A stretch of 64,000 bases of DNA, taken from Gemmobacter nectariphilus. GTDB lineage: Bacteria > Pseudomonadota > Alphaproteobacteria > Rhodobacterales > Rhodobacteraceae. The position numbers and the translations under genes are program-made. Shown here piece after piece: positions 6,833 to 54,420 of the stretch. Numbering within the stretch: position 1 is the stretch's first letter; each line of letters begins with the position of its first letter. Where the stretch lies: NCBI GenBank assembly GCA_020721445.1, contig DYMU01000012.1:1-64000 (forward strand), in the 5' to 3' direction. Under the pieces are notes generated by a model. That model did not search any database. It was not told the DNA's origin and saw only the letters and a program-made list of their open reading frames with translations.

Positions 6833-6855
6833 GCCAGCGCAAAAGGACTTGCATC

Positions 6856-7659: not shown

Positions 7660-7738
7660 GGCGGATCGTGGTTTGACTTCGCCCGCAAACGAGGGCAACG
7701 CTGAGGCCTGACCGCCCCTTCGCGCGCCGGGCCCTGCC

Positions 7739-12671: not shown

Positions 12672-12716
12672 CCCGCTGACAAAGACCGCACCGACGACCA
12701 AGGGAGAGATCGACCG

Positions 12717-14492: not shown

Positions 14493-14559
14493 CCTGAACC
14501 TGTCACGCGAAGGACGATCTTTCTGCGAAAGATCCCCTGCCCCAGAGGGAGTTCACCAG

Positions 14560-14772: not shown

Positions 14773-15079
14773 TCGCCCGTCTTTTGTTGGGCCGAGGATG
14801 CCTCCGGCGGGGGTATTTCGGCCAAGAGGAAACGGCGGCGGCGAAGGTAGGGAGTTACCCCACCCTGAATCACCCACCGATCCTGTCGGTTTGTCAGGGT
14901 GGGGCATTGGAAGCGTCCGCTTCCCCTTGGGCGGTCATCGGCTCCCCAGCCTGTACCGCGGAACCAGAAGACCGGAACAAGGTTAAGAAAGCCTTATTCC
15001 TCTTGGAAAAAATACCCCACGGGGGTGCGGGGGTGTGAAACCCCCGCGGACAACGGCAGGCTTGGAAGGGCCGGTGGCA
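14773..15079. repeat. Gene-free 307-bp stretch with palindromic repeat copy B
   Basis: No credible gene is seen here. The left arm at 14810-14831 (GGGGTATTT then CCAAGAGGAA) and the right arm at 14997-15018 (reverse orientation) match at 19 of 22 positions and are separated by about 165 bp. The right arm is followed by a GGGGG/CCCCC hairpin around 15021-15047. This is the same family as the copies at 6.7, 21.0, 50.0 and 57.2 kb. The intervening DNA shows no recognisable feature. Confidence 0.75.
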
Positions 15080-15715: not shown

Positions 15716-15726
15716 GGAGGCTTTGC

Positions 15727-16938
<1,212 letters not shown>

Positions 16939-16944
16939 CCGGCC

Positions 16945-17394
16945 ATGCAGGCGGTCCGCATTCTTCAGGACTATCTGGATGACATTGCCGCCGCGGTGAT
17001 GAGCGGTGATTATCCGCGCTATCGCGACGGCGTGGTGCTGCCGCTGCATCTGGTCACACACACAACCAACCTGTCCGTCACCACCGAAGACGGCCTGCGC
17101 AACGGCTTTGACGCCTTTCGCCTGATGCTGCGGACCCAGCGGGTGACCGACTATATCCGCCTTGTCGAAAGCGCCCAGGCGATCGACGAAGAGCTGATCT
17201 CTGGCCGCTATGTCACCCATCTGATTGCGGGTGGGATGCGGGTCAATGACCCGTTCCAGTCGCAAATCACCCTGCGCCGAGAGGCCGGTCGCTGGCGTGC
17301 GGCCTCGATCACCAATGCCCTTTCCAATTCCCGCTGGCCGCTTGTGATGCCCAGCCTTGCCAATACCGACCCTCTGAAAGGACCGGAGCAATGA
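16945..17394 (+). CDS. NTF2/SnoaL-like hypothetical protein
   Basis: This 149-residue protein looks like an NTF2-like or SnoaL-like cone fold. It starts with a helix (AVRILQDYLDDIAAAVMSGDYPRY), followed by alternating strands (VVLPLHLVTHTT, QITLRREAGRWRAASI). It is tightly packed between thiolase (6 bp gap) and fadJ (ATGA overlap). That implies a role in or control of beta-oxidation, but I do not recognise a characterised homologue. Catalytic residues are not evident. Confidence 0.75.
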   Translation: MQAVRILQDYLDDIAAAVMSGDYPRYRDGVVLPLHLVTHTTNLSVTTEDGLRNGFDAFRLMLRTQRVTDYIRLVESAQAIDEELISGRYVTHLIAGGMRVNDPFQSQITLRREAGRWRAASITNALSNSRWPLVMPSLANTDPLKGPEQ

Positions 17395-24096: not shown

Positions 24097-25134
24097 TCAG
24101 TTCAGGCGCAGGCCTTCTGGCGAGAACACATGCAGTGCGGCAGGGTCGGCACGCAGGGGCATTTGCGCCCCGGGTTTCGGTGTCAGGCCGCCCGGCAGCC
24201 GCGCGAGGATCGGTTCCGTGCCGACATGGCCGTGCAGAAAGGTATCGGCCCCGTGCGGCTCGACAAGTCTGACGCGAAATTGGGCGTCCGCATCGGGCGT
24301 CGGATGCAGATGTTCGGGACGAATGCCCAGTTGAACCGGACCATCGGGCAGATCAACCGGCATCTCACCCAAGGCCGAGCACAGGCGCCGGGCCCGGACC
24401 TGTGCCGGCATCAGGTTCATGCTCGGCGCGCCGATAAAGCGGGCAACAAAGGTGTTGGCGGGGCGGGAATACAGGTCCAGCGGCGCACCGATCTGTTCGA
24501 CCTTGCCACCATTCATCACGACAAGAACGTCGCCCATCGTCATCGCCTCGATCTGGTCATGCGTGACATAAAGCGTGGTGGTGCCCAACCGCTGTTGCAG
24601 CGTGCGGATTTCCAGACGCATCTCGCCGCGCAACTGGGCATCAAGGTTCGACAACGGCTCGTCGAACAAGAACAGGTCAGGCTCGCGCACAATCGCACGG
24701 CCCATGGCCACCCGCTGACGCTGCCCCCCTGACAGGGCGCGCGGCTTCTTGGCCAGATGATCGGTCAGCCGCAGCAAGGCCGCCGTGTCACGCACCTTGC
24801 GGTCAATCTCGGACCGGCCTTCGCCACGGATTTCCATGCCCAGCGCGATGTTGCGCGCCACCGACAGGTGCGGCAGCAGGGCATAGTTCTGAAAAACCAT
24901 GGAGACCTTGCGCCCCGACGGTGGCAGCCGCGTCACCTCATGCCCGGCAATGCTGATCTGGCCACTGTCCGGGGTTTCCAGCCCGGCCACAAGCCGCAGC
25001 AAAGTGGACTTTCCGCATCCCGATGGCCCGACCACAACGCAAAACTGACCCGCCAGAACCGTCAGATCCAACGCAGACAGAACCGGCGTCTTGCCAAAGC
25101 TTTTTGTCACGCCCCGCAGGATCAACCCGGTCAT
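24097..25134 (-). CDS. ugpC: UgpC/MalK-type ABC transporter ATP-binding protein (glycerol-3-phosphate or glycerophosphodiester import)
   Basis: This 345-residue ATPase of the carbohydrate-uptake CUT1 class has Walker A GPSGCGKS (36-43), signature LSGGQ (134-138), Walker B LFLFDE (154-159) and a C-terminal OB/regulatory domain with LGIRPEHL. Start ATG 25134 is at the natural family start. It is divergent from ugpA across a 175-bp spacer that carries Pho-box-like repeats in both directions. The Ugp assignment rests on the permease/binding-protein set and the downstream GpdQ-like phosphodiesterase; a different CUT1 substrate is possible. Confidence 0.86.
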   Translation of the reverse strand: MTGLILRGVTKSFGKTPVLSALDLTVLAGQFCVVVGPSGCGKSTLLRLVAGLETPDSGQISIAGHEVTRLPPSGRKVSMVFQNYALLPHLSVARNIALGMEIRGEGRSEIDRKVRDTAALLRLTDHLAKKPRALSGGQRQRVAMGRAIVREPDLFLFDEPLSNLDAQLRGEMRLEIRTLQQRLGTTTLYVTHDQIEAMTMGDVLVVMNGGKVEQIGAPLDLYSRPANTFVARFIGAPSMNLMPAQVRARRLCSALGEMPVDLPDGPVQLGIRPEHLHPTPDADAQFRVRLVEPHGADTFLHGHVGTEPILARLPGGLTPKPGAQMPLRADPAALHVFSPEGLRLN

Positions 25135-25177
25135 TTCGCATACCCCTTGCCTGATGCGACGGGCATAGGCGGGCGGT

Positions 25178-25195
25178 GTGACATCGGTGTGAAAG
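25178..25195 (-). promoter_or_regulatory. Pho-box-like direct repeat upstream of ugpC
   Basis: Read on the minus strand the site is CTTTCAC-ACCG-ATGTCAC, two 7-mers spaced by 4 bp. This is the 11-bp layout of PhoB boxes (CTGTCAT-N4-CTGTCAC type). TATGCC, about 10 bp further downstream (25162-25167), is positioned like a -10 element. It lies 44 bp before the ugpC start. Confidence 0.6.
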
Positions 25196-25208
25196 GAATA
25201 ATTCGAAG

Positions 25209-25248
25209 GCTTCACGCAACATTCACAGCAAATCCACGGGAAGTTCAC
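25209..25248 (+). promoter_or_regulatory. Four in-phase Pho-box-like repeats upstream of ugpAEB-gpdQ
   Basis: Four 7-mers spaced by 4 bp occur in perfect 11-bp phase: GCTTCAC (25209), CATTCAC (25220), AATCCAC (25231) and AGTTCAC (25242). Each keeps the TNCAC core of a PhoB half-site. The array ends about 60 bp before the ugpA ATG. PhoB control of ugp genes is well known in other proteobacteria; here it is inferred from the repeats. Confidence 0.6.
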
Positions 25249-25309
25249 CGCGTCACCATGCAGCCGTTGCACAGCTTGGCTCTGGTCGCGCGCACACCGG
25301 GGGGATGCA

Positions 25310-26188
25310 ATGCAGCAAAAGACGGCACCAATGATGCAAACGGTGGGGCTGCTTGCGCCGTCTTTGGTGTTTCTGGTGCTGTTCACCTACTGGCCGATGC
25401 TGCAATCGGTGTGGCAATCGCTGCGGATTGAAAGCTTCGGGTCCGATGAGGTCACCTTTGGTCTTGGCAACTTCCAACGGCTATGGACCGACGACAGTTT
25501 TCAACAGGCCGCGCTGAACAACCTTGTCTATGCCCTTGGCACAATCGTGCCCGGCATTGTGATCGCACTTGCCCTTGCAGTTGGCCTGCAAGAGGCGACC
25601 CGGTTGAACGCCGCCCTGCGGGCAATCGTGTATTTTCCAGTGCTGATCCCGCTGGTGGCGGCGGCGGCTTTGTTTTCCTTTGTGTTTTTGCCCGGCATCG
25701 GGCTGCTGGACTGGCATCTTGCCAAGCTGGGCATGGCGCAGATCAACTGGCTGGGCAATCCGAAGGTGGCGCTGTGGTCGCTGATCGGGCTGACGGTGTG
25801 GAAGAACGCTGGCTATTACATGCTGTTCTTTCTGGCCGGTTTGCAGGCGATCCCGAATGATCTGTACGAGGCGACACGGATTGAAGGCGCCGGGGTCATC
25901 GGGCGCTTTCGCCGGGTGACGCTGCCGCTGTTGGGGCCCACCTTCGCCTTTGTCTTCGTGATCGCGTTGATCAATGCGGTGACACAAATCGACCATGTGG
26001 TGGTGCTGACCAAGGGCGGGCCATCCGACAGCACCAACCTTTTGTTGTTCTACATCTATCAGCAGGCGCATGAGAATCTGGACTATGGCAAGGCCGCGGC
26101 GGCCACCGTGGTGACCCTGGCGCTGTTGCTGGCCCTGTCGCTGACCTCGCTGCGCAGCCTTGAACGCGGGGTGCATTATGAAAGCTGA
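25310..26188 (+). CDS. ugpA: UgpA-type ABC transporter permease
   Basis: This 292-residue inner-membrane protein of the MalF/UgpA permease class has six or so hydrophobic segments. The cytoplasmic EAA loop is YEATRIEGAGVIGRFRRVTLPLL, which contacts the ATPase. The ATG at 25310 follows GGGGGG. Its end overlaps ugpE by 11 bp. With ugpE it should form the membrane channel of the importer. Confidence 0.87.
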   Translation: MQQKTAPMMQTVGLLAPSLVFLVLFTYWPMLQSVWQSLRIESFGSDEVTFGLGNFQRLWTDDSFQQAALNNLVYALGTIVPGIVIALALAVGLQEATRLNAALRAIVYFPVLIPLVAAAALFSFVFLPGIGLLDWHLAKLGMAQINWLGNPKVALWSLIGLTVWKNAGYYMLFFLAGLQAIPNDLYEATRIEGAGVIGRFRRVTLPLLGPTFAFVFVIALINAVTQIDHVVVLTKGGPSDSTNLLLFYIYQQAHENLDYGKAAAATVVTLALLLALSLTSLRSLERGVHYES

Positions 26189-28393: not shown

Positions 28394-29209
28394 ATGCTTA
28401 TCGCGCAAATCTCTGACCTGCACATCCGCCCGCGTGGCAAACCGGCCTACCGGGTGTCGGAAACCAATATGCTGGTGGCGCGCGCCCTGGCTGCCCTGCG
28501 GGCCTTGACCCCTGCCCCCGATCTGGTGGTGATCACCGGCGATCTGACCGATTGGGGCCTGCCCGAAGAATATGCGCTGCTGCGTCAGTTGCTGGCTGTG
28601 CTGCCGATGCCGGTGCTGATGATCCCCGGCAACCATGACCGGCGGGCGGAATTGCTGGATGCCTTTTCCGGCGCTGCCGATGGGCACGGCTTTATCGGCT
28701 TTGTCCATGACGCAGGTCCGTTGCGGCTGATCGGGTTGGATACGCTGGTGCCCGGCGCGTCACATGGCGCGCTGTGTGGCGACCGGCTTGCCGCGCTGGA
28801 ACATGCCTTGGCCGGGCGTGCCGATACGCCCACGATGATCTTCATGCACCACCCGCCCTTTGATTGCGGCATTGCGCACATGGACCGCATCGCGCTGACC
28901 GAAGGGCGCGAGGCGTTCTTGCGCATCGTCGCGGCCAACCCGCAGATCGAGAGGGTGCTGTGCGGCCACCACCATCGCCCGATCCAGACCCGGCTTGCGG
29001 GAACCTTGGTGCAGATTGCCCCATCGGTGGCGCATCAGGTAACGCTGGATCTTGGGCCCGACGGTGAAGGGTCCATGACCATGGAGCCGCCCGCCTTTTT
29101 GCTGCATCGCTGGGCAGACGGGGCCTTGGTCACGCATCAGGCCTATGTCGAGGCCTATCCGGGGCCGTTCCCCTTTGTGCTGGACGCAGATTATCTGGGT
29201 GGCGACTGA
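28394..29209 (+). CDS. GpdQ-like glycerophosphodiesterase (binuclear metallophosphoesterase)
   Basis: This 271-residue calcineurin-like phosphoesterase has metal ligands at positions nearly identical to those of GpdQ of Enterobacter: D8 and H10 (ISDLH), D50 (TGDLTD), N80 (PGNHD), a His in FMHHPP near 152, and H192/H194 in CGHHH. The C-terminal region (VEAYPGPFPF) also resembles GpdQ. It would hydrolyse glycerophosphodiesters to glycerol-3-phosphate and an alcohol. Placed at the end of the ugp operon, it suggests import followed by hydrolysis. A CpdA-like cyclic-nucleotide phosphodiesterase is the main alternative. Confidence 0.87.
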   Translation: MLIAQISDLHIRPRGKPAYRVSETNMLVARALAALRALTPAPDLVVITGDLTDWGLPEEYALLRQLLAVLPMPVLMIPGNHDRRAELLDAFSGAADGHGFIGFVHDAGPLRLIGLDTLVPGASHGALCGDRLAALEHALAGRADTPTMIFMHHPPFDCGIAHMDRIALTEGREAFLRIVAANPQIERVLCGHHHRPIQTRLAGTLVQIAPSVAHQVTLDLGPDGEGSMTMEPPAFLLHRWADGALVTHQAYVEAYPGPFPFVLDADYLGGD

Positions 29210-30072
29210 CCGCCCGGTTCAACCGCTTGTCCCGATGCTGACCAGATCGCCTGCACGGCCTCCAGCCAGCGGTGAATGCACTCCAGCGCCTCGGGTTCGT
29301 CCAGAAACGGAATATGGCCGCGCTCGGGCACCTCGACGCCACAGATGTCGGGGCGGCGGCGGCACATTTCGGCAAAGGTCTGGTGGCTGAGCACATCCGA
29401 GTTTGCCCCGCGGATCACCGCCATGGGCAGCCCGGCACAGGCGTCAAACAGCGGCCAGACATCGGGCAACGGGCCGGCCATCGCGGCATCGAGTGCGATG
29501 CGCAGCGCCGGGTCATAGGTCAGCCCGACATGATCGTCCAGTTGCACATAGTGGCGCACGGTTTCTTCCTGCCAGCGCAGGCTGGGCACGTGAAAAAAGC
29601 CGGGCATGGCGTGTTGCATCCGGTCGGCCACCTCGGACAGGGTCGGCACCGTGGGTTCCATCCCGACATAGGCACCGATCCGCAGCAGCCCGTCGCGTTC
29701 CAGCACCGGGCCGACATCGTTCAGGCACAGCCCTAACAGACGCTGCTTTTGGGTGGCCGCGATCACCAGACCCAACAGGCCGCCGCGCGATGACCCGATG
29801 ATCGCCACCCGGTCAAGACCCAGATGGTCCAGCAAGGCGACGGCATCCCTGGCCTCTTGTGCCACGGTATAGGTTGCCGGGCCGGTCCAGTCCGACCCGC
29901 CACGCCCCCGGCTGTCCAGCCGGATCAGGCGTACATCGGGTGGCAGGTGACGGTGCAGATAGTCAAAATCGCGGCCATCGCGCGACAGCCCGGCAAGTGC
30001 CAGCAACGGCAGACCTTGCCCCTCATCGCGATACGCAAGGTTTGCGCCGTCCTCGGCCCGGAATGTCTGCAT
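29191..30072 (-). CDS. Alpha/beta-fold hydrolase
   Basis: This 293-residue alpha/beta hydrolase has an oxyanion-loop region (LPLLALAGLSRDGRDF), the nucleophile elbow GSSRGG (Ser in G-x-S-x-G), an acid region in AVIRGANSDVL, and the catalytic His in PERGHIPFLDEPEAL. It starts at ATG 30072. It is the last gene of the minus-strand fabI-hbd run (40 bp after hbd), and its 3' end overlaps the convergent gpdQ-like gene by 19 bp. Substrate unknown; a short-chain ester or 3-hydroxybutyrate oligomer is speculative. Confidence 0.85.
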   Translation of the reverse strand: MQTFRAEDGANLAYRDEGQGLPLLALAGLSRDGRDFDYLHRHLPPDVRLIRLDSRGRGGSDWTGPATYTVAQEARDAVALLDHLGLDRVAIIGSSRGGLLGLVIAATQKQRLLGLCLNDVGPVLERDGLLRIGAYVGMEPTVPTLSEVADRMQHAMPGFFHVPSLRWQEETVRHYVQLDDHVGLTYDPALRIALDAAMAGPLPDVWPLFDACAGLPMAVIRGANSDVLSHQTFAEMCRRRPDICGVEVPERGHIPFLDEPEALECIHRWLEAVQAIWSASGQAVEPGGQSPPR

Positions 30073-30112
30073 CGCCTCGCTTGCCCCTCCCAAGGCGTGT
30101 GACGGGCGCGGG

Positions 30113-30973
30113 TCAGGCTATCGGATAGCTTGCAAAGCCCTTGCCCGATTTGCGCCCAAGGTATCCGGCATGCACCATTTGTTTCAACAGCGGGCTGGGC
30201 CGGTATTTCGGGTCGTCAAAGCCCTGATACAGCGTTTCCATGATGTTCAGCACCACATCCAGCCCGATCAGATCGCCCAATGCCAACGGCCCCATCGGGT
30301 GATTGGCGCCCAGTTTCATCATGCTGTCAATATCTTCGGGCGTGGCCAGACCTTCGTAGACGCAATTGATCGCCTCATTGATCTGCGGCGCCAGCAGGCG
30401 GTTGACGATGAAGCCATAGCTGTCCTTGCTGACGCGCGGGGTCTTGCCGATGGCGCGGGTCAACGCGGTCACCGCATCAGACACCGCATCGGTGGTTTGC
30501 AGCGCGCGGATGATTTCGACCAGTTGCATCACCGGCACCGGGTTGAAAAAGTGCATCCCGATCACCCGGCCCGGATGCGCCGAGGCAGCGGCCAGTTGCG
30601 TCAGCGAAATCGACGAGGTGTTGGAGGCAAAGATGGCCTGTTCCGGGCAGATCTGGTCCAGCTTGCCAAGGATCGCCGCCTTCACCTCAAGCTTTTCGAC
30701 GATGGCTTCGATCACGATGTCGCGGTCGGCCATCGGGTCCAGCGTTGTGGTGGTGGTGATGCGGGCCAGCGTGTCGGCGGCCTGTGCCTCGGTCAGGGTG
30801 GCTTTCTTGATCTGGCGGGCAAGGCTGCCCTCCATCGTCTTGCGGGCGCGGTCCAAGGCTGCCTGCGACAGGTCTTGCAGAACCACTGGGAACCCGGCGG
30901 CGGCGCAGACCTGCGCAATGCCGTTGCCCATGGTGCCCGCGCCGATCACGCCAATGGCTTGCAGGGTGGTCAT
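30113..30973 (-). CDS. hbd: 3-hydroxybutyryl-CoA dehydrogenase
   Basis: This 286-residue NAD(P)-dependent enzyme interconverts acetoacetyl-CoA and (S)-3-hydroxybutyryl-CoA. The Rossmann motif is GVIGAGTMGNGIAQVCA near the start. SNTSSISLTQLA and the catalytic-His segment GMHFFNPVPVMQLVE follow, then the C-terminal domain with GRKSGKGFASY. AAGGAGA precedes ATG 30973. It is 11 bp downstream of bdhA in the same operon. PaaH/FadB2-like names also apply. Confidence 0.92.
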   Translation of the reverse strand: MTTLQAIGVIGAGTMGNGIAQVCAAAGFPVVLQDLSQAALDRARKTMEGSLARQIKKATLTEAQAADTLARITTTTTLDPMADRDIVIEAIVEKLEVKAAILGKLDQICPEQAIFASNTSSISLTQLAAASAHPGRVIGMHFFNPVPVMQLVEIIRALQTTDAVSDAVTALTRAIGKTPRVSKDSYGFIVNRLLAPQINEAINCVYEGLATPEDIDSMMKLGANHPMGPLALGDLIGLDVVLNIMETLYQGFDDPKYRPSPLLKQMVHAGYLGRKSGKGFASYPIA

Positions 30974-30984
30974 CGCAGTCTCCT

Positions 30985-31767
30985 TCAATGGGCGGTCCAG
31001 CCGCCATCAATCGGCAGCGCGGTTCCGGTGATCTGGGCGGCGGCGGGGGTGCACAGAAAGGCCGCAAGCGCGCCGATCTGGCCGGGCTGCACAAAGGCGC
31101 GCGTCGGCTGCGACGCCAGCAGCACATCGCGGATCACCGCTTCCTCGGTGATCCCGCGCGCGGCGGCGGTTTCGGGGATCTGCGCCTCGACCAAGGGTGT
31201 CAGCACATAGCCGGGACAGATGGCATTGGCCGTCACGCCATGTTCGGCCCCTTCCAGCGCCAGCGTCTTGGTCAGACCAACCACGCCATGCTTGGCCATC
31301 ACATAGGCCGATTTGTAGGGCGACGCGACCAACCCATGGGCCGAGGCCACGTTGATCACCCTGCCCCATTTGCGCGCCTTCATGCCGGCAAAGGTGGCAC
31401 GGCACAGATGCCAGGCCGCCGACATGTTGATGGCAAGGATCAGGTTGTAGCGATCCACCGGAAATTCCTCGATCGGGGCGACGGTCTGGATGCCGGCGTT
31501 GTTCACCACGATGTCGATCTGGCCGAACTGCGCGGTTGTTGCGGCCACCAGATCGGCAATCTGGCCCGGGTCCGACATGTCGGCGCCATGAAACCCCACC
31601 GGCGCGCCGGTCTCGGTCTCGATCAGGGCGCGCTCTGCCTCAATCGCGTCGGGGTCGCCAAAGCCGTTCATCATGACGGCATGGCCCGCCTCGGCCAGGG
31701 CGCGGGCAACGGCCAGCCCGATACCCGAGGTTGATCCGGTGACAATCGCGGTGCGGAAATCGGGCAT
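30985..31767 (-). CDS. bdhA: D-3-hydroxybutyrate dehydrogenase
   Basis: This 260-residue short-chain dehydrogenase oxidises (R)-3-hydroxybutyrate to acetoacetate. It has the NAD loop TGSTSGIGLAVA, the NNAGIQ motif, the catalytic Ser-Tyr-Lys (NVASAHGLVASPYKSAYVMAKHG) and the HBDH-typical CPGYVLTPLVEAQIPE. The following atoDA gene pair supports the assignment, because acetoacetate is then activated to acetoacetyl-CoA. Confidence 0.93.
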   Translation of the reverse strand: MPDFRTAIVTGSTSGIGLAVARALAEAGHAVMMNGFGDPDAIEAERALIETETGAPVGFHGADMSDPGQIADLVAATTAQFGQIDIVVNNAGIQTVAPIEEFPVDRYNLILAINMSAAWHLCRATFAGMKARKWGRVINVASAHGLVASPYKSAYVMAKHGVVGLTKTLALEGAEHGVTANAICPGYVLTPLVEAQIPETAAARGITEEAVIRDVLLASQPTRAFVQPGQIGALAAFLCTPAAAQITGTALPIDGGWTAH

Positions 31768-31774
31768 GCTGGCC

Positions 31775-32431
31775 TCAGCTCAGGGTCATTTCGGGAACGT
31801 CGTCGGGGATCACCAGCGCGGCTTCGGTGGCGGCAAGGATGTCGTCCACGCTGACCCCCGGCGCACGCTCGCGCAAGATCAGCCCGGCCCCGGTGGGTTC
31901 GATCACCGCCAGATCGGTGACAATCAGGTTGACCCGGCGCATCGCGGTCAGCGGCAGGGTGCAGCGCGGCACGATCTTGGATGCCCCCTTGGCTGCGTGC
32001 TGCATCGCCACCACCACGCGGGCCGCCCCGGTGACAAGGTCCATGGCGCCGCCCATGCCCGGCACCATCTTGCCCGGCACCTTCCAGTTCGCCAGATGCC
32101 CGGCCTCATCGACCTGCAAGCCGCCCAGAACGGTCATGTCCAGATGGCCGCCGCGGATCAGGCCAAAGCTCATGGCGCTGTCAATGCTGGCAGCCCCCGG
32201 CACCGCCGAGACAAAGCTGCCGCCGGCATCGGTCAGATGCGGGTCTTCCATGCCTTCGGGCGGGCGCGCACCCAAGCCTATCACGCCGTTTTCAGCCTGA
32301 AAGAACACCCCCAGACTGGCAGGCACAAAGCTGGCCACCAGCGACGGCAGGCCGATGCCAAGGTTGACCAGCATCCCCGGCTTGATTTCCTGCGCCACAC
32401 GGCGGGCGATCAGCGTTTTGGCATCCATCAT
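31775..32431 (-). CDS. atoA: Acetate/acetoacetate CoA-transferase beta subunit
   Basis: This protein of about 218 residues belongs to the family I CoA-transferase B subunits. The N-terminus (MDAKTLIARRVAQEI), the active-site Glu in FQAENGVIGLG and the long segment ANWKVPGKMVPGMGGAMDLV match AtoA/ScoB. Two ATGs (32431 and 32428) are available after AAGGGGG; the second has the better spacing. It follows atoD after 7 bp. The complex transfers CoA between acyl-CoA and acetoacetate or acetate. Confidence 0.92.
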   Translation of the reverse strand: MMDAKTLIARRVAQEIKPGMLVNLGIGLPSLVASFVPASLGVFFQAENGVIGLGARPPEGMEDPHLTDAGGSFVSAVPGAASIDSAMSFGLIRGGHLDMTVLGGLQVDEAGHLANWKVPGKMVPGMGGAMDLVTGAARVVVAMQHAAKGASKIVPRCTLPLTAMRRVNLIVTDLAVIEPTGAGLILRERAPGVSVDDILAATEAALVIPDDVPEMTLS

Positions 32432-32438
32432 CGCCCCC

Positions 32439-33092
32439 TTAACTTGCACGGATCAGCAGGTGATCGACCAGAACACCCGGCGTCTTGACCGCGTCGGGCG
32501 CAATCACGCCCACCGGCACAATGCTTTCCGGCTCGGCAATCACGATGCGGCCCGCCAAGGCCATCACCGGGTTGAAGTTGTGCGCGGTCAGCAGATAGCA
32601 CAGGTTGCCGACGTAATCGGCCTGCCACGCCGCCAGCAGCGAAAAATCGGCCTTCAACGGGGTTTCCAGCAGGAACCTTTTGCCGTCCACCTCGATCACC
32701 TGCTTGCCATCTTCCACCTCGGTGGCAAGGCCGGTGGGCGTCAGCACGCCGCCAAGTCCCATGCCACCCGCGCGGATGCGTTCGACCAAAGTGCCCTGCG
32801 GCACCAGTTCCACCTCGATTTCGCCCGCGATCATCTTGGCCTGGGTTTCGGGGTTCAGCCCGATATGGCTGGTGATGACCCGCGCCACCGCCCCCGCCGT
32901 GATCAGCTTGCCAATGCCCTTGCCCGGCATCGCGGTGTCATTGCCGATCACGGTCAGACCGCGGGCACCGCGCGCCACCAGTGCATCAATCATTCGCTCG
33001 GGCGTGCCAACCGCCATGAAGCCGCCGATCATCAGGCTGGCACCATCGGGGATCATCTGTGCCGCTGCCGCCGGGGTTAACGCGCCTTTCAT
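32439..33092 (-). CDS. atoD: Acetate/acetoacetate CoA-transferase alpha subunit
   Basis: This 217-residue A subunit of a family I CoA-transferase has MIGGFMAVGTPERMIDAL (the GGF CoA-binding loop), SHIGLNPETQAKMIAGE, VPQGTLVERIRAGGMGLGG and TAHNFNPVMALAG, all AtoD-like. Its start overlaps the ackA stop (ATGA). It forms the heteromer with AtoA. Confidence 0.92.
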   Translation of the reverse strand: MKGALTPAAAAQMIPDGASLMIGGFMAVGTPERMIDALVARGARGLTVIGNDTAMPGKGIGKLITAGAVARVITSHIGLNPETQAKMIAGEIEVELVPQGTLVERIRAGGMGLGGVLTPTGLATEVEDGKQVIEVDGKRFLLETPLKADFSLLAAWQADYVGNLCYLLTAHNFNPVMALAGRIVIAEPESIVPVGVIAPDAVKTPGVLVDHLLIRAS

Positions 33093-34273
33093 GCCGCCTC
33101 CTGCTCTGCCAGACCCACCGCCGCGCGCGCGGCCCGGGCGATGACAAGTTCTTCGTTGGTGGGAACAACCATCACCGTGGTCCGCGCCTGATCGGACGAG
33201 ATCACCTGTGCGTTGTCGGCGTTTCGGGTGGGATCAACGTCGATCCCCATCCAGCCCAGATGCTCGCAGATGCGGGCACGAATCAGGCGCGAGTTTTCGC
33301 CAATGCCGCCGGTGAACACCAGCGCGTCAATGCCCCCGACAGAGGCCGCCATCGCCCCCACCTCGCGCTGACAACGCGACACGAAATAGTCGATGGCCTG
33401 CCCCGCCTCGACCGTGCCCGCTGCCTCCAGCGTGCGCATGTCATTCGACAGGCCCGACAGGCCCAAAAGACCCGACTGCTTGTAAAGCAGGTCGGAAATC
33501 TGCGCAGGCGTCATGCCTTTCTGATCCATCAGATACAGCAGCACCCCGGGGTCAAGTTGGCCGCAGCGGGTGCCCATCGGCAGGCCCTCAAGCGCGGAAA
33601 ACCCCATGGTGGACGCGACCGACTGGCCCGCCAGCAGCGCGCACATCGACGCGCCATTGCCCAGATGCGCCACCACAACCCGGCCCTTGGCCAGATGCGG
33701 CGCGATCTGGCCCAGCGCGCCCGCGATATAGTCATAGCTCAGGCCGTGAAAGCCATAGCGGCGCACGCCTTCGTCATAGAACGCGCGCGGCAGGGCAAAG
33801 ACATCATTGACCCAAGGGTGATTGCGGTGAAACGCGGTGTCGAAACAGGCCACTTGCGGCACATCGGGAAACGCCTCTGTTGCGGCACGGATGCCCGACA
33901 GGTTATGCGGCTGGTGCAGCGGCGCAAAGGCCGACAGGTCGGCAAGGTGGATCAACACCTCGTTGTTGACGGTAACCGGGGCCGAAAAAGCGTTGCCGCC
34001 ATGCACCACCCGGTGACCGACCGCCAACACCGCCAGATCAGGGTAGATCGCCCTCAGGCTTTTGATCGCTGCCTGCATCGCCCCTGTATGTGTGGTCAGA
34101 TCATCGGGGGCGACCGGGATCGGCGCCCCGTCCGGGCCTTTCAGCTTCAGCGTGCCCTCGGGGCCAATGCGGTCGGCAAGCCCGGTCGCCAAGGGCGCTG
34201 CCCCTTGCGCCGGATACAGCGCCAGTTTCAGCGAAGATGACCCCGCGTTCAACGTCAGGACCGCATCGGTCAT
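33089..34273 (-). CDS. ackA: Acetate kinase
   Basis: This 394-residue kinase makes ATP from an acyl phosphate and ADP. Family motifs are NAGSSSLKLALY at the N-terminus, GHRVVHGG, CFDTAFHRNHPW, RYGFHGLSYDYI and VVAHLGNGASM. Start ATG 34273 overlaps the stop of the upstream MaoC-Pta gene (ATGA), so acyl-phosphate formation and use are translationally coupled. Butyrate or propionate kinase activity cannot be excluded from sequence. Confidence 0.94.
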   Translation of the reverse strand: MTDAVLTLNAGSSSLKLALYPAQGAAPLATGLADRIGPEGTLKLKGPDGAPIPVAPDDLTTHTGAMQAAIKSLRAIYPDLAVLAVGHRVVHGGNAFSAPVTVNNEVLIHLADLSAFAPLHQPHNLSGIRAATEAFPDVPQVACFDTAFHRNHPWVNDVFALPRAFYDEGVRRYGFHGLSYDYIAGALGQIAPHLAKGRVVVAHLGNGASMCALLAGQSVASTMGFSALEGLPMGTRCGQLDPGVLLYLMDQKGMTPAQISDLLYKQSGLLGLSGLSNDMRTLEAAGTVEAGQAIDYFVSRCQREVGAMAASVGGIDALVFTGGIGENSRLIRARICEHLGWMGIDVDPTRNADNAQVISSDQARTTVMVVPTNEELVIARAARAAVGLAEQEAA

Positions 34274-35649
34274 GCCTTGGCCCCGGCGAAATGATGGATC
34301 GCCGCCACCGCGCAAGACGCCAGCCGCGACATCGGGCTGTCTGATCGTGAGTTCAAGATGACCGGCACCTTGGCCCCCAGCACCAGCCCCGCGCCTTCAG
34401 CATGGCTGACAAAGGCCAGTTGCTTGGCCAGCATGTTGCCCGCGTCAATGCCCGGCACGACCAGAATATTCGCCCGCCCCGCCACGCCGCCTTTCAGCCC
34501 CTTGGTGCGGGCGGCGGCCATGTCGATGGCATTGTCCATCGCCAAAGGGCCTTCGACCATGCCGCCCTTGATCTGGCCACGATCGGCCATTTTCGACAGC
34601 AGGGCCGCGTCAATCGACGACTGGATCGCCGGGTTCACCGTTTCCACCGCCGACAGCACACCCACCCGCGGCTCCATCTCCAGCGACAGCGCAAGGTCGA
34701 TGGCGTTTTGGCAAATGTCCATCTTGGTGGCCAGATCGGGGGCGATGTTGATGGCGGCGTCGGTCACCATGATCGGCTCGGGCTGGCCCGGCACATCCAT
34801 CACGAAGACATGGGTAAAGCGGCGGCCGACGCGCAGGCCGGTGCCTTTTTCCAGCATCGGTTTCAGCAGGTCATCGGTGTGCAGATGCCCCTTCATCACC
34901 GCCGCCGCGCGCCCTTCGTGCACCAGGGCACAGGCCAGGGCAGCGGCGGCAAGATCGCTTGGCGCGTCGATGATCTCGATCCCGGTCAGGTCAGCGCCGA
35001 TCTCGGCCGCCGTTGCCCGTATCCGTGCGGCATTGCCGATCAGGATCGGCGTGATGATGCTTTCGTGCCCTGCCAGCAAGGCCCCACCCAGCGAATTGGC
35101 ATCATCCGGGCAGACCACCGCTGTCGGCAAGGCCGGCAGCGGGCGGGCGCGTTCCAAGAGCGCCTCGAAATGCCGGTGCCGTTGCACGATCAGACCGGGG
35201 ATTTCGACCGTATCGCTTTCGAACTTTTCCGCCGGGGCCAACACCTCGGCCTCGCCGGTGATGATCATTTGGCCATCGGCACTGCGGCGCACGCTGGTGG
35301 ACAGGCGCACCGCGCCCTCGGTCAGCTTTTCCAACACCTCGACCCGGCAGATCACTTCCTCACCGGCATGGGCGCGGGTGTGAAAATCAAGGATCTGACG
35401 CCGATACAGCGTGCCTGCACCGGGCAATTGCGTGCCCAGCACGGCCGAGATCAGCGAGGCCACAAACATGCCCGGTGCAACCCGTTCGGTATGGCCATTG
35501 CCGTCCAGATCACTGTCGGTCAGGTGCATCGGGTTGTAGTTTCCCGAAGCGACCGCAAAGACATACAGGTCGTCATTGGTGATCAGGCGGCGCAACTCGG
35601 CAAAGTCGCCGGGCTGCAACTCGTCAAACGTTCGGTTCACCACATGCAT
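34270..35649 (-). CDS. MaoC-like hydratase / phosphate acyltransferase fusion protein
   Basis: This 459-residue fusion has residues about 1-140 as a MaoC-like hotdog domain and residues about 160-459 as a phosphate acetyl/butyryltransferase domain (HEGRAAAVMKGHLHTDDLLKP, FVMDVPGQPEPIMVTDAAINIAPDL, GPLAMDNAID). The second domain converts acyl-CoA plus phosphate to acyl phosphate for AckA. In the MaoC domain the usual catalytic Asp of the G-D-x-N-P-x-H motif is Asn37 (SGNYNPMH), so hydratase activity may be reduced or lost. There is a 1-bp gap to the DUF3141 gene. Confidence 0.92.
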   Translation of the reverse strand: MHVVNRTFDELQPGDFAELRRLITNDDLYVFAVASGNYNPMHLTDSDLDGNGHTERVAPGMFVASLISAVLGTQLPGAGTLYRRQILDFHTRAHAGEEVICRVEVLEKLTEGAVRLSTSVRRSADGQMIITGEAEVLAPAEKFESDTVEIPGLIVQRHRHFEALLERARPLPALPTAVVCPDDANSLGGALLAGHESIITPILIGNAARIRATAAEIGADLTGIEIIDAPSDLAAAALACALVHEGRAAAVMKGHLHTDDLLKPMLEKGTGLRVGRRFTHVFVMDVPGQPEPIMVTDAAINIAPDLATKMDICQNAIDLALSLEMEPRVGVLSAVETVNPAIQSSIDAALLSKMADRGQIKGGMVEGPLAMDNAIDMAAARTKGLKGGVAGRANILVVPGIDAGNMLAKQLAFVSHAEGAGLVLGAKVPVILNSRSDSPMSRLASCAVAAIHHFAGAKA

Positions 35650-35650
35650 C

Positions 35651-38128
35651 TTACTTCACCGCAACAGGGGCTTCTTCGACAGGTTTGGGCGCAGCCCCAC
35701 GGCGTGCCTTGGGTGCGGCAGTGACGGCCTCATTGGCGGGTGCGGCCAGCGGATCATCTTCCACACTGCCGGTGACAGGGGGCAGACCCAGAACTTCGCA
35801 GAACCGTTGCAACAAGGACAGGGTGCGCGGCGACATTTCTTCCAGCGTGCCCGGCACGTATTGCACCACCTTCAACGCCAGCTCCCGTTCTGCCTGTTCA
35901 GGCAGCAACAGGGGTAGCGTTTCAATGGCGCGGTCAAGTTCATAGGTGGCGATCAGGGTTTGCTGGTGGATGATCATCGCCCGGCGTTCGGCGCCCAGAC
36001 TGCGGAACGGCTCATCTTGCGTCAGCACCCGGCTGGCCCGTTCCAGACGGTCACGCCGCACCTGCCCGCGGTTTTCCGCCAGCAAGACCAGCATGCGGAT
36101 CACCGCCTCGGGGAAGCCGCCCAACTCCATCGTCATCAGCGCCTGCGACACTTCGGGCAGACCGCGCAATTCATCCTTCGACTTCAGGGTGCGGCGGGCC
36201 TCATGGGTCTTGCCGAAGGCGCGCGCCCAAGGATTGCCCCACAGGGTGTAGAACGCCATCTCGAAGGTCATGTCGCGCAGGTCGCGCATCACGTCGATCA
36301 TCTGTTCAGTGCTTTGCACCCACAGCGCCTCGGCTGCCAGAAAAGGGTTCTCGGGGGCGGTCTTGGCGCGGGTGTCGCGCACCTTTTCGGCCATCGATTC
36401 GACCTGCTTCATGGCCGGGTTGCGTGACGAGGCCAAGGCCCGCGTCAACCGCGCCGGATGCAGCGCGCGGCTGATCTCGGCCCCGGTCTGGGTTACCGTC
36501 GCCTGAATCATCGGCCGCAGCATCATGTCGTAAAGCTGCGATTGCACTTCGGACGCCCGGGCGACGGCGGCAAAGGGCCGTTCGTCATCGTGGCCATCGT
36601 CCAGCAGGCGGAGGTCATCCAGCGTGCGTTCGGAAAAACCGACGGTAAAGTGCTTGCGCCCGTCCTGTTCGGTGACATCCTCAATCTGCATTTCATACAG
36701 ACCGGGGGCAAGGGCCTCGATGGTCTTCAGGGTCGAGGTGACCTCGGAATGTTCCTTGTTGGCGATCTGGCTCGACACGAAGATGCCCAGATGGCCGACC
36801 TGATCGTGAACCATATAGACGATGCGCTGCCCGCGGATGCGGATTTCATCAACATCGGCATAGGTTTGGGCGATCCAGTTCAGCGCCTGCTGCGGCGGGG
36901 TGATGTTGTCGCCGTGGCTGGCAAAGACGATGATCGGCGCACGAATGGCCTTCAGGTCCACCGGGCGGCCGGGCTCGATCCGCGCCTCGTTCTTGATCAG
37001 GCGGTTGCCGACGAACAACTGCTCGACGATCCATTTGATTTCCGGCTCGTTCAGCAAGAAAAAGCCGCCCCACCAACGCTCGAAGTCAAGAAACGTCTTG
37101 TCACCCTTGTCAATGTCGCGGAACAGATCGGTATATTTGCGAAAAAGGGTGCGTGACGGGTTCATCTGCTCAAAGTTCTGCACCAGATGGGCGCCGTCGA
37201 AAATGCCGCCCCCAAGGTCTGACAGCATCATCGGAATCCAGGTGCCGCCCAGCACACCCGCGTTATAGCGCATGACATTTTCGCCCACACGGCCCGACCA
37301 CGGGTCAACCGGCGCACCGTTGATCACGATGGGGCCGGTCAGATCGGGGTTGGTCGCAGCCAAAAGCAGCGTGGCCCAACCGCCCTGGCAGTTGCCAATC
37401 ACCACCGGCTTGGACGCCCCGGGGTGCAACCGCATGACTTCGCGCACAAAGGCTGCCTCACTGCGGGTCACATAGGACAGATATTGCCCTTCGGCGGGTT
37501 CGCGGCGGAACGCCACGAAATAGACCGGATGGCCTTCGCGCAATGCCACGCCCACCTGACTGTCGGCCTTGAAGCCGCCAATGCCCGGCCCGTGCCCGGC
37601 GCGCGGGTCGATGACGATATAGGGACGACGGGTCGGGTTGATGGTCACGCCTTCGGGCGGCAGGATGCGCAGCAGGATGTAATTCGACGGAAATGGCAGA
37701 TCCTTGCCATCCATCACCAGCTCATAGTCATAGATCAGCACCGGCGGGCAACCTGCCGCCTCATGCTCCAGAAAGATGTCACCGCGCTTGCGCAGGGTGT
37801 CCATTGTCAGGATCGCACGTTCGGCGGCATCGCGCAAATAACCCGCCCAAGCCCCCGCCAACCCGCCTGTTGTCTGCACCCTCCGCAACGACTCCATCAG
37901 GCTTTCGGTCTTTTCGACCATGTCGCGGGTCCGCTCGCTGTGCGTGTCCACAATCCGTTTGGAATGCCGGGCGGCTGCCGTGGACAGGATGTTGCTGGTG
38001 GACGCTGATGCCGCAAGCTCGGTTTCCATCGCCTCCATCACGCGGCGCAAGGCGTCCAGCGCATCGCCTTCGGGACGCGGAACAGAAGGTTGGCGGGCAG
38101 GATCGAACAGATCGAAAACATTGGCCAT
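35651..38128 (-). CDS. DUF3141 family protein, PHA-synthase-like alpha/beta hydrolase
   Basis: This 825-residue protein has a helical N-terminus (1 to about 115), an alpha/beta hydrolase core (about 125-480) and a long helical C-terminus. The core holds G-N-C247-Q-G-G, a lipase box with Cys as in PhaC, plus D407 (SHGDNITPP) and H446 (QVGHLGIF). That Cys-Asp-His set has PhaC-like spacing. The family is annotated only as DUF3141 and sits by habit with pta-ackA-fabI in alphaproteobacteria. A role in polyhydroxyalkanoate or acyl-CoA chemistry is inferred. Start ATG 38128 follows a weak GAGGATAG-like site. Confidence 0.88.
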
Positions 38129-38138
38129 GGAACTATCC

Positions 38139-38903
38139 TCAGGCAGTGATGGAGAAGCCGCCGTCAATGTCGTGGACACCACCGGTCAGATTGCACGCTT
38201 CGGGCGACGACAGAAAAGCCGCCATCGCGCCGACGTCCTCGATGGTGGCCAGTTGATGCGTTGGCGCGCGGTCCGATGCCGCCGAAAGCAATTCGTCGAA
38301 ATGGTCGATCCCGCTGGCAGCGCGGGTTTTCAGCGGTCCGGGCGACAGGGCATGCACGCGGATGCCCTTTTCGCCCAACTCGGCCGCGGCATAGCGCACG
38401 GAACTTTCCAGCGCGGCCTTGACCGGGCCCATCATGTTGTAGTGCCGCACAACGCGGCCTGACCCAAAGAACGACACCGACAGACAGGTGCCGCCATTGG
38501 CCATCAGCGGTTCGGCCAGACGGATCATCCGCAGGAAGGAATGCACCGAGATATCCATCGCCAAGGCAAAGCCTTCGGCAGAACAATCGACCACCCGGCC
38601 ATGCAGATCGTCCCGCGGCGCAAAGGCGATGGAATGCACGATGGTATCCAGCCGACCCCATTGCCGGGCGATGGTGTCAAACACCGCCTCCAGCTGCCCG
38701 GCCTGACCCACATCCAAAGGCAGCGTAATCTCTGCGCCAAGCAGGTCTGCCAGCGGCCGCACATGGGGTTCGGCCTTTTCATTCAGCCAGGTCACCGCAA
38801 TATCTGCACCCTGCGCCCGCAGCGCCTTGGCGCAGCCCCAGGCGATAGAGTTTTCATTGGCAATGCCAACCACCAGCGCCTTCTGACCCTTCAAGGAAAA
38901 CAC
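38139..38903 (-). CDS. fabI: Enoyl-ACP reductase, FabI type
   Basis: This 254-residue short-chain reductase of the FabI class has the N-terminus [20 protein letters not shown], typical of FabI. The catalytic Tyr-x6-Lys is present ([14 protein letters not shown]), as are HSIAFAP and [12 protein letters not shown]. The start is GTG 38903, preceded by GGAGA with 7-bp spacing, which agrees with the family start. It is the first gene of the Pho-box-preceded operon and is probably an additional, not the housekeeping, enoyl reductase. Confidence 0.91.
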
Positions 38904-38933
38904 AGGCCGATCTCCACATTCCTGCCTACAGCG

Positions 38934-38975
38934 TTGACACGAATGTGAGCCCGCCGCGTGACTGTCTGGTGACAG
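38934..38975 (-). promoter_or_regulatory. Two Pho-box-like repeat pairs upstream of the fabI operon
   Basis: On the minus strand the distal pair is CTGTCAC-CAGA-CAGTCAC (38958-38975) and the proximal pair is GGCTCAC-ATTC-GTGTCAA (38934-38951). Both have the 7+4+7 layout of PhoB boxes, and the distal pair is close to the consensus CTGTCAT-N4-CTGTCAC. They end 30 bp before the fabI GTG start. In Sinorhizobium a pta-ackA operon is known to be phosphate-stress induced through PhoB, which fits. Confidence 0.65.
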
Positions 38976-39122
38976 GTGGGATACCGCCGCGTGACATTTG
39001 GCCAAAGCGTGCTGTTCGGTCGCGGCACGAAATGCCGGGCCACGGGATCGTTGCGCAAGGTCGTGCATCACCGCGCGCCGATGGCAGTCGGCACAGCCAA
39101 AATACCGGGCAGAAAGGGGATA

Positions 39123-39199
39123 TGGTGAACCCGGAGCGATTCGAACGCCCGACCCTCAGATTCGTAGTCTGATGCTCTATCCAGCTGAGCTACGGGTCC
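39123..39199 (-). tRNA. tRNA-Arg (anticodon ACG)
   Basis: A 77-nt cloverleaf is read on the minus strand. The acceptor stem is GGACCCG paired with CGGGTTC, the D-arm is GCTC/GAGC, the anticodon stem-loop has CTACGAA (anticodon ACG), and the T-arm is GGGCG-TTCGAAT-CGCTC. CCA is encoded at 39123-39125. The 5' end overlaps the last 10 bases of the upstream histidine kinase gene. Confidence 0.96.
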
Positions 39200-40671
39200 A
39201 CTGTGGGGGCGGATGTAGCGACCCCGGTGCGGCTTTGCAAGGGCAAAACACGCGGCGACGGCTGGGTGGTTTGCGAAACCGCCTTGGGCAGCCAGATCAC
39301 GAACTCGGTGCCATCGGCATCGCTGCGGGCAAGCTCAAGCGTGCCGCCATGGCCTGTGACCAGTTCGGATGCGATGGCCAGACCCAGCCCGGTGCCGCCC
39401 TTGCGGGTGCCGCCCTGAAAGGCTGCAAACAAATGCTCGCGCGCCTTGGCGGGCAGGCCGGGGCCGGTATCGCCGACCCTGATCCACCACCGCGCACCAT
39501 CCTCACCGGCCGAGATTTCGACCGTGCCGGGCTTGCCGGTCGCCTCGATCGCCTGACGCGCATTGCGAACAAGGTTTGACAGCACGCGAAACAACTGCTC
39601 GCCATCGGCATGCAGGGTCAGACCCGCCGGCACGTCGATCAGCGCGGTGGCCAGCCCGCCCGTCTGCAAGCCTTCGCCCTCGGCCACCTCTTCGACCAAA
39701 GGCCGCAACACGACGGCGGCAAGCTGGGGCGGCGCTTCTTCGGCCTTGCCAAAGGTCAGCGTGGTTTCGCACAGATGCACCGCGCGGCTGATCGAGTTCA
39801 CCAGCTTTGGCGCGGCCCGCGCCACCATCGGATCGGCGCTGTTTTCAATCCGGTCGGCAAACAACTGGGCTGTGGTCAGGATGTTGCGCAGATCGTGGCT
39901 GATCTTGGCCACCGCGCCCCCCAACTGGGCCAGGCGCTGCTTTTGGCGCAAGGCCGTGGTCAGTTGGGTTTGCAGGCTGTTCAGCGCCTCTTCGGCCGCG
40001 CGCAGCTCGACCACGCGGGCGGTGGGGGCAATGACCCGGCGGGCATCTTCGGGCGCCTCGGCATAGGCCTGCATGTGGCGCACCACGCGGCGGATCGGGG
40101 CCACGATCATCCGCTGCACCGAGATGAACAACAAAATCGCCGTCACCGCCGAAATCAGTGCCGACAACACCAGAATGCGCATGCCATAATCGACCATCGC
40201 CGCCCGCAAGGGCCCGGTCTCCATGGTGATCTCGATCAGCAACCCCGCCTGTTGCACCGGGTTGCCGATCACCCGGATCACCCGGTTCATCGGGTCGCGC
40301 AGCACACCGATCGCGTCGCGCACCAGATCCCATGGCCCCGAGGTGCGCAGGTCATAGGTGTCATGGATCGCCGCCGGAATGGGGGACGACAGCACCAGTT
40401 GGCGCACCTCATCGCGCCGCAACACCACGTTGAACACACCGGCGTTGACCAAAAGCTCGGCCTCAAGCTCGGGCGCGATGGTCTCATCCGTGGTCAGCAG
40501 CGACAGCGAGGCAATCTGTGCCTTTTCCAGCCGCAAGATCAGGTAATCAGCCCGGAACCGCGCAATCGACGGCACAAAGATCAACACCTCGGCCAGCATG
40601 ACAAACGCCACCGTCAGCATCAGGAAGCGCCCTGACAGGGTATTGAAGAACCCCTTTCCCGCGCGCGTCAC
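39190..40671 (-). CDS. Sensor histidine kinase (orphan)
   Basis: This 493-residue membrane kinase has two transmembrane helices (about 14-34 and 166-186) flanking a periplasmic sensor region. A HAMP-like linker follows (about 185-235). The DHp helix carries H259 in AKISHDLRNILTT. The HATPase domain has N-box LVRNARQAIE, G1 VGDTGPGLP and G2 GGTRKGGTGLGLAI. No response regulator is adjacent. Its TAG stop lies at bases 8-10 of the tRNA-Arg gene, so the kinase and tRNA genes overlap by 10 bp on the same strand. Confidence 0.9.
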   Translation of the reverse strand: MTRAGKGFFNTLSGRFLMLTVAFVMLAEVLIFVPSIARFRADYLILRLEKAQIASLSLLTTDETIAPELEAELLVNAGVFNVVLRRDEVRQLVLSSPIPAAIHDTYDLRTSGPWDLVRDAIGVLRDPMNRVIRVIGNPVQQAGLLIEITMETGPLRAAMVDYGMRILVLSALISAVTAILLFISVQRMIVAPIRRVVRHMQAYAEAPEDARRVIAPTARVVELRAAEEALNSLQTQLTTALRQKQRLAQLGGAVAKISHDLRNILTTAQLFADRIENSADPMVARAAPKLVNSISRAVHLCETTLTFGKAEEAPPQLAAVVLRPLVEEVAEGEGLQTGGLATALIDVPAGLTLHADGEQLFRVLSNLVRNARQAIEATGKPGTVEISAGEDGARWWIRVGDTGPGLPAKAREHLFAAFQGGTRKGGTGLGLAIASELVTGHGGTLELARSDADGTEFVIWLPKAVSQTTQPSPRVLPLQSRTGVATSAPTVDP

Positions 40672-54330: not shown

Positions 54331-54420
54331 CAGCAGACCGTGTCCGCAAACCCCCCCGCAATCTTGCGAACCGGGCGGCTGACTGCCATATCCCGATGAC
54401 GGATTTTGCCGGAGGTTTTC

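Follow-up and report, generated by a model that had tools for sequence, protein, structure and literature searches.

A predicted nine-gene operon in Gemmobacter nectariphilus joins a DUF3141-pta-ackA-fabI core to ketone-body genes behind a Pho-box-like repeat

The pSymA plasmid of S. meliloti carries a DUF3141-pta-ackA-fabI run (L201), which we take to be the orfA-pta-ackA-fabI operon of that species. This operon (Summers et al. 1999) is reported to be PhoB controlled in a passage of PMC8231600, and with the matching run on pSymA this bears out the PhoB-induced pta-ackA precedent that the first-pass annotation had named from Sinorhizobium. Passages of the same paper describe Burkholderia group D1/D2 phaC-pta-ack-fabI clusters with a PhaJ-Pta fusion, AckA, a PhaC-like gene, and FabI/PhaB. 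The phaC2-pta-ackA genes of H. seropedicae also place a PHA-synthase-like gene alongside pta-ackA, and in the relevant passages of PMC8222739 pta, ackA, and phaC2 are raised in high, not low, phosphate. The literature passages searched offer neither an answer to the role of DUF3141 nor a reason for having a phosphotransacylase and AckA in phosphate starvation.

The locus described here lies in a 64,000-nt window of Gemmobacter nectariphilus (contig DYMU01000012.1 of GCA_020721445.1, positions 1 to 64,000). As in S. meliloti, DUF3141, a phosphotransacylase, AckA, and FabI are encoded in a single run, with these four core genes adjacent and on the same strand.

Gene content and distribution

The run comprises nine genes, all with open reading frames, in the following order:

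38139-38903, minus strand: FabI-type enoyl reductase of the PRK07533 subfamily (NF005717, 420.7 bits; cut-off 337)
35651-38128, minus strand: DUF3141, PhaC-like alpha/beta hydrolase (PF11339, 750.8 bits)
34270-35649, minus strand: MaoC domain fused to a phosphate-butyryltransferase-like domain (domain matches, residue alignment)
33089-34273, minus strand: AckA, acetate/propionate-family kinase (TIGR00016, 377.1 bits; cut-off 293.4)
32439-33092, minus strand: AtoD, 3-oxoacid/acetate CoA-transferase subunit A (TIGR02429, 214.8 bits; cut-off 128.5)
31775-32431, minus strand: AtoA, 3-oxoacid CoA-transferase subunit B (TIGR02428, 289.2 bits; cut-off 243.55)
30985-31767, minus strand: BdhA, D-3-hydroxybutyrate dehydrogenase (TIGR01963, 355.8 bits; cut-off 307.05)
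30113-30973, minus strand: Hbd, 3-hydroxybutyryl-CoA dehydrogenase (NF004474, 416.3 bits; cut-off 408)
29191-30072, minus strand: alpha/beta hydrolase, Ser-Asp-His (domain match, residues)

The successive junctions from fabI to the hydrolase gene are +10, +1, -4, -4, +7, +7, +11, and +40 bp, and the nine genes are presumably co-transcribed. The tight minus-strand layout is as first proposed, except that the range given for it began at 30072 and so excluded the hydrolase gene. The fabI start is the GTG at 38903, where homology to relatives begins; the reading frame itself extends upstream and is open to 39071. A sigma-70 consensus scan of positions 29000-39400, weakly informative for such organisms, finds no promoters (shuffles have a mean of 1.8). 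A tRNA-Arg gene is located beside the operon (39123-39199). The neighboring phosphodiesterase has no close copy (≤42% identity) in the same-genus genomes searched, which therefore offered no flank for reading an empty insertion site at this tRNA gene.

The expected catalytic residues are present in DUF3141, FabI, BdhA, Hbd, and the hydrolase. FabI has the active-site Tyr155 and Lys162, and the genome codes for two other FabI-like proteins (41% and 39%). The DUF3141 triad is C247, D407, and H446, with the Asp and His present in 57/57 aligned rows and the Cys in 56/57, the sole exception (L070) being truncated at a contig end. Similarity to PhaC is weak, with 41.7 bits against the PhaC model TIGR01836 (cut-off, 365.3) and an E value of 0.0017 by sequence to the solved PhaC 5hz2. 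A structure model built from 17 close relatives is poor (mean pLDDT, 48.7), and an hhalign comparison with the genome's own PhaC, using a shallow alignment, is not significant. BdhA, whose closest solved relative is 3v2h (311 bits), retains all seven residues checked (Q94, S142, H144, K152, Y155, K159, and Q196), which we take to act in the active site. Hbd and BdhA act on opposite enantiomers, (S) and (R), respectively, which argues against a single linear pathway.

The fusion gene was first read as Pta-MaoC. The MaoC fusion stands, but the acyltransferase domain appears to resemble phosphate butyryltransferase more closely than Pta (195 bits to Ptb 7vg9 versus 58 bits to Pta 1td9), although it scores 284.6 bits against the Ptb model TIGR02706, below the cut-off of 410.5. 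Only one other PTA domain is present in the genome, within a 773-amino-acid frame. The Asp in the SGDxNPxH motif is the catalytic residue of (R)-specific enoyl-CoA hydratases (MaoC/PhaJ); the window protein reads SGNYNPMH where 5cpg has SGDRNPVH, and Asn occupies this position in 29 of the 31 rows having a residue there. This substitution speaks against a simple hydratase reading, and the activity of the MaoC domain cannot be assumed. The AckA pocket residues are V90, L119, F175, and A227; V90 corresponds to the Val of acetate kinases, the aligned propionate kinase having Ala, a difference presumably meaningful for distinguishing the two activities.

Conservation of the nine-gene order is partial among 27 distinct fabI-DUF3141 loci. 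The complete set is present in three; atoDA is in 22 and the hydrolase gene closes 16, whereas hbd is found in only seven. Of the added genes, atoDA and the hydrolase gene recur more often, and bdhA and hbd are optional; the loci that carry atoDA represent a sporadically distributed lineage. Culturable relatives with the operon include Fertoeibacter niger and Frigidibacter. The MaoC-Ptb gene is absent from five loci, two of which retain atoDA (L056, without ackA, and L061, with ackA), suggesting that the acyl-phosphate step is dispensable to the module.

The upstream repeat and Pho regulation

Two direct-repeat pairs are located 31 to 72 bp ahead of the fabI GTG start, together with an additional half-site:

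38958-38975, minus strand: Pho-box-like 11-bp tandem, CTGTCAC-caga-CAGTCAC (13/14 match)
38934-38951, minus strand: second, weaker pair, GGCTCAC-attc-GTGTCAA (sequence reading)
38991-38997, minus strand: single ATGTCAC half-site, 22 bp farther upstream than the first pair

Scored as a 14-position CTGTCAY tandem with 11-bp spacing and a threshold of 11/14, the first pair is the sole 13/14 match in the window, both strands considered; two further sites reach 12/14 (25178-25195, minus strand; 54500-54517, plus strand). Twelve of the 26 fabI-first upstream regions, including that of the window, have a repeat scoring at least 11/14, all at positions -63 to -91, and the other 14 score below 11/14. 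Eight other spacings give 0 to 4 matches among the 26, no upstream matches at spacing 11 on the reverse strand, and, of the 113 remaining operon heads of these loci, 7 reach the threshold (Fisher P = 3.4e-6; P = 3.9e-5 with the window and a near twin removed). The Pho-box-like claim of the first-pass annotation is upheld for the first pair, which recurs at the same place in part of the relatives; the second pair is degenerate in the nearest relative (L069). More distant DUF3141 loci have no excess at spacing 11 (2/22, with other spacings giving 0 to 2; 22 of 24 loci were scored, leaving out L042 and L141), which is weak evidence either way, since the score is blunt: the region upstream of the S. 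meliloti pSymA run itself reaches 10/14 at best.

The genome has a phoB gene (PhoB equivalog, 338.4 bits; cut-off, 296.2) adjoining frames read as pstB and phoU. A 12/14 site, CTGTCAC-gata-GTTTCAC, is present upstream of pstS, and another 12/14 site is near ugp-like genes. Genome-wide, the Pho-box pattern with up to two mismatches has 225 matches, versus 113 for a reversed control, and no clear regulon is apparent among the 30 loci listed. From these sequence patterns, PhoB control of the nine-gene operon is likely, presumably through PhoB binding at the candidate repeat. We also considered control by PhaR, a polyester regulator. A longer TGCNGCANTGCNGCA motif, chosen post hoc, is matched at 10/12 or better in 7/26 upstreams (other spacings, 0 to 3), with the window upstream scoring 7/12; the published short PhaR motif is not enriched in the 26 upstreams (8 observed versus 6.1 expected; P = 0.27).

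Possible roles under phosphate limitation

We tentatively favor, at somewhat less than even confidence, a PhoB-activated operon that under low phosphate and excess carbon converts acyl-CoA via acyl phosphate to ATP and exchanges ketone bodies. Phosphate shortage with carbon excess would be the trigger for PhoB to activate the single operon. DUF3141, as a PhaC-like Cys acyltransferase, and FabI would then act on thioesters of short acyl or hydroxyacyl groups, after which the Ptb-like domain would exchange CoA for phosphate and AckA would use the acyl phosphate and ADP to form ATP and the free acid. AtoDA, BdhA, and Hbd would link acetate, acetoacetate, and 3-hydroxybutyrate reversibly to the CoA pool. 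Overall, the operon would release CoA, yield ATP independently of respiration, and drain or recapture C2 and C4 acids connected with the polyester pool; the substrates and the direction of flux are predictions from gene content. Counted against this reading are the 14 upstreams below threshold and the lack of excess in the distant loci, the five loci without MaoC-Ptb, the doubtful activity of the MaoC domain, the opposite enantiomers used by Hbd and BdhA, and the high-phosphate expression in H. seropedicae (PMC8222739, in the passages noted above).

The operon could instead be biosynthetic, with AckA/Ptb and ATP activating acetate or 3-hydroxybutyrate, AtoDA and BdhA/Hbd supplying hydroxyacyl-CoA, and DUF3141 polymerizing it under phosphate limitation as an additional polyester synthase. 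The PhaC-like Cys-Asp-His triad and weak PhaC-model matches are consistent with this, as are a phasin-family gene near DUF3141 on an S. americanum plasmid, the naming of such DUF3141-type genes as phaC by the Burkholderia authors (a passage of PMC8231600), and the PHB accumulation of S. meliloti on low-phosphate medium (a passage of PMC12542648). However, the genome already possesses a canonical phaC locus as well as another PhaC_N match, the PhaC similarity is far below the cut-off and not significant by hhalign with its shallow alignment, the frequent DUF3141 partner FabI removes a double bond and forms no hydroxyl, and MaoC has Asn for Asp; we consider this reading unlikely.

Slightly less probable still is that carbon supply controls these genes and that the repeat serves another regulator or is a remnant. 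The 14 relatives lacking an 11/14 site and the 22 distant loci without excess would fit, but the specificity of spacing, strand, and position, the gene-level control, and the similar sites at pst and near ugp-like genes argue otherwise. A butyrate-type electron sink (acetoacetyl-CoA through Hbd, dehydration, and FabI to butyryl-CoA, then Ptb/AckA or AtoDA with a gain of ATP) would explain why one operon combines Hbd and an enoyl reductase with a Ptb-like domain and a kinase but is improbable, as the only dehydratase-like domain mostly has Asn for Asp, hbd is in so few loci, and AckA V90 matches acetate kinases.

Returning to the favored PhoB-activated ATP and ketone-body reading, a more speculative form, to which we give only a small chance, is a horizontally spread module in which the Asp-less MaoC holds acyl-CoA for Ptb, and 3-hydroxybutyryl- or acetoacetyl-type thioesters released by the PhaC-like enzyme become ATP and ketone bodies. 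If true, this would be bacterial ketogenesis turned on by phosphate shortage.

Comparison with described systems

The S. meliloti run (L201) differs from the Gemmobacter operon in that fabI is last, pta codes for 318 amino acids without a MaoC domain, and atoDA, bdhA, hbd, and the hydrolase are not annotated in it. The passages on the Burkholderia D1/D2 clusters make no mention of atoDA, bdhA, or hbd (PMC8231600), and those on H. seropedicae phaC2-pta-ackA do not mention ketone-body genes (PMC8222739). The atoDA-bdhA-hbd extension of a pta-ackA operon, initially flagged as undescribed, was likewise not found in the titles, abstract openings, and passages searched. Relatives that add these genes hint at the likely substrates, namely C4 thioesters, acetoacetate, and 3-hydroxybutyrate. 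The DUF3141-pta-ackA-fabI core is already known from Sinorhizobium, and the addition of atoDA, bdhA, and hbd is what appears new against the literature searched.

Operon organization and conservation

The first-pass annotation proposed a run of nine minus-strand genes, which is borne out by the ORF listing and family searches, with tight junctions (+10, +1, -4, -4, +7, +7, +11, and +40 bp in gene order). The first four products are FabI, DUF3141, a fused MaoC and PTA_PTB protein (MaoC-Ptb), and acetate kinase (AckA), followed by two CoA-transferase subunits (AtoD and AtoA), 3-hydroxybutyrate dehydrogenase (BdhA), 3-hydroxybutyryl-CoA dehydrogenase (Hbd), and an alpha/beta hydrolase.

29191-38903, minus strand: operon of nine ORFs
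39123-39199: tRNA-Arg gene, upstream of the operon

On the downstream side, a phosphodiesterase gene converges on the operon, its end overlapped by the last gene; it comes after transporter genes that we read as putatively ugp-like from ABC-transporter and solute-binding domains, with no curated match. The plus strand carries, at 12717-19577, a likely fatty-acid oxidation cluster of acyl-CoA dehydrogenase, thiolase, and FadJ-like genes.

DUF3141 is uncommon in the genus (2 of 16 genomes, source genome included); it exceeds the cut-off in 20 of 198 family genomes, near full-length in 16 including the source, and in 31 of 385 genomes drawn from the class. Among 41 mapped loci of relatives (L-numbered), fabI directly precedes DUF3141 in 29, or 27 distinct loci once duplicate contigs (L035 = L064 and L048 = L069) are merged; the window is outside these 27. 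MaoC-Ptb is present in 22, ackA in 23, atoD with atoA in 22, the hydrolase at ≥60% identity in 16 (partial in L071), hbd in 7, and bdhA in 6 (truncated in L040). The complete nine-gene order occurs in three of the 27 (L037, L057, and L069). L070 has its 5′ end cut and retains the remainder of the set. Reduced forms include fabI-DUF3141 alone (L066), with only a hydrolase at 42% identity (L039), or with atoDA without MaoC-Ptb and ackA (Pannonibacter L056), and DUF3141 with MaoC-Ptb, ackA, and the hydrolase (Lampropedia L067). The Paracoccus sp. M683 locus (L065) has a shortened atoD (12415-12687) and no atoA behind it.

A candidate PhoB site upstream of fabI

Sites were scored out of 14 as matches to two CTGTCAY half-sites 11 bp apart.

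38975-38958, minus strand: CTGTCAC-N4-CAGTCAC before fabI, 13/14
25178-25195, minus strand: Pho-box-like repeat by the ugp-like transporter genes, 12/14
54500-54517, plus strand: third window site of at least 12/14, inside the ORF listed at 54406-55794

On scanning both strands, only the fabI repeat reaches 13/14 in the window. The 25178-25195 site falls within a listed ORF (24097-25386), and from the start of the ABC domain we judge it to lie ahead of the real start. Elsewhere in the genome, similar sites precede pstS (CTGTCAC-gata-GTTTCAC, 12/14) and the gene divergent from it (TTGTCAC-atta-GTGTCGT, 11/14). A PhoB equivalog is present, adjoined by frames read as pstB and phoU; within this 3.7-kb locus no site of at least 11/14 precedes phoB, save one on the other strand.

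Conservation was assessed in the 200 bp before fabI of 25 loci and the window (26 upstreams); L051 and L063 were excluded on account of a divergent fabI (57-58%) with an uncertain start. The repeat is partially conserved: 12 of the 26 upstreams reach at least 11/14, every one at -63 to -91, and 14 fall below. Eight alternative spacings give 0 to 4 upstreams at this threshold, and the reverse strand at spacing 11 gives none of 26. As controls from the same loci, 8 of 168 other genes reach it and, among operon heads called by script, 7 of 113 (Fisher P = 1.6e-7 and 3.4e-6, respectively, and 3.9e-5 against operon heads once the window is removed together with L069, its near twin; these values are rough because the loci are mutually related). 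PhaR-like TGC/GCA palindromes occur upstream of fabI in L068, L071, L034, and L040, beside the Pho-box-like repeat in the first two; none is present in the window's fabI upstream.

Enzyme identities and predicted function

An alignment of 57 DUF3141 rows (duplicates counted, L063 left out) has Cys in NCQ(G/A)GW, Asp in GDxITPP, and His in GHLGIFV, a triad kept in every row bar L070, which is cut before the Cys. Matches to PhaC models are weak; the solved PhaC 5hz2 is matched with E = 0.0017. The structure model was too poor for use. The MaoC domain has (R)-specific enoyl-CoA hydratases as its nearest solved relatives.

34270-35649, MaoC domain residue 37: Asn (SGN, versus SGD of 5cpg)

This is the position of the catalytic Asp of PhaJ. 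Asn occupies it in 29 of the 31 rows with a residue, window included (28 from the lineage of the window, with two duplicate pairs among them, plus L152); the two Asp rows (L145 and L148) are both more distant, and 11 further rows are gapped. The acyltransferase domain, with 195 bits to phosphate butyryltransferase 7vg9 versus 58 bits to Pta 1td9, is by similarity nearer the former enzyme. AckA has Val where an aligned propionate kinase has Ala, and Ala where its best-matching acetate kinase, 1g99, has Pro, both at pocket positions. All residues checked in the window's BdhA, Hbd, FabI, and hydrolase are present.

We read this, from sequence, as a putative phosphate-starvation operon that would free CoA and make ATP from short thioesters, and may trade acetate, acetoacetate, and 3-hydroxybutyrate; the regulatory half of this reading is firmer than the flux half. 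Flux could run in the other direction, the enzymes feeding a further polyester synthase. Another contig of the genome carries a canonical polyester locus, in which phaC is accompanied by genes read as phasin, phaR, and phaZ, and a second PhaC_N match lies elsewhere. The genome also has two further FabI-like genes and another CoA-transferase pair; its sole other PTA domain is part of a 773-aa frame taken to be a malic enzyme fusion. A single linear pathway is disfavored by the MaoC Asn, by Hbd and BdhA acting on opposite enantiomers, and by the loss of MaoC-Ptb from some relatives.

Plasmids and comparison with known operons

In the DUF3141 tree, Phreatobacter, Rhabdaerophilum, and Stappiaceae branch among Paracoccaceae, as does Lampropedia with weaker support; several deep forks are open, and L063 and other short or distant rows were omitted. 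This placement would fit horizontal transfer. DUF3141 matches 176 plasmid records, 109 of them typed conjugative; 92 matches cover ≥80% of the query, and the weakest are phaC genes. An S. americanum conjugative plasmid (L199) has a short fabI remnant (8879-8974) ahead of DUF3141. On Rhizobium etli p42d (L198) none of the other eight genes is found near DUF3141, and a Sulfitobacter conjugative plasmid (L202) has, at 5643-8737, a short DUF3141 form and FabI beside a sigma factor, without pta-ackA.

DUF3141, Pta, AckA, and FabI share one neighborhood, in variable order, at 12 of 24 more distant DUF3141 loci, with fabI first in L141. None of the 24 has atoDA within the run, although L138 has the pair ~6 kb off on the opposite strand, and no description of the atoDA-bdhA-hbd extension was found in the titles, abstract starts, and passages of the open-licence literature searched. 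At 22 more distant DUF3141 loci the repeat is not in excess (2 of 22 at ≥11/14). Upstream of the DUF3141-pta-ackA-fabI run of Sinorhizobium meliloti pSymA the best site is 10/14, and the simple score can therefore miss such sites; we take this run for the operon that is reported to be under PhoB control.
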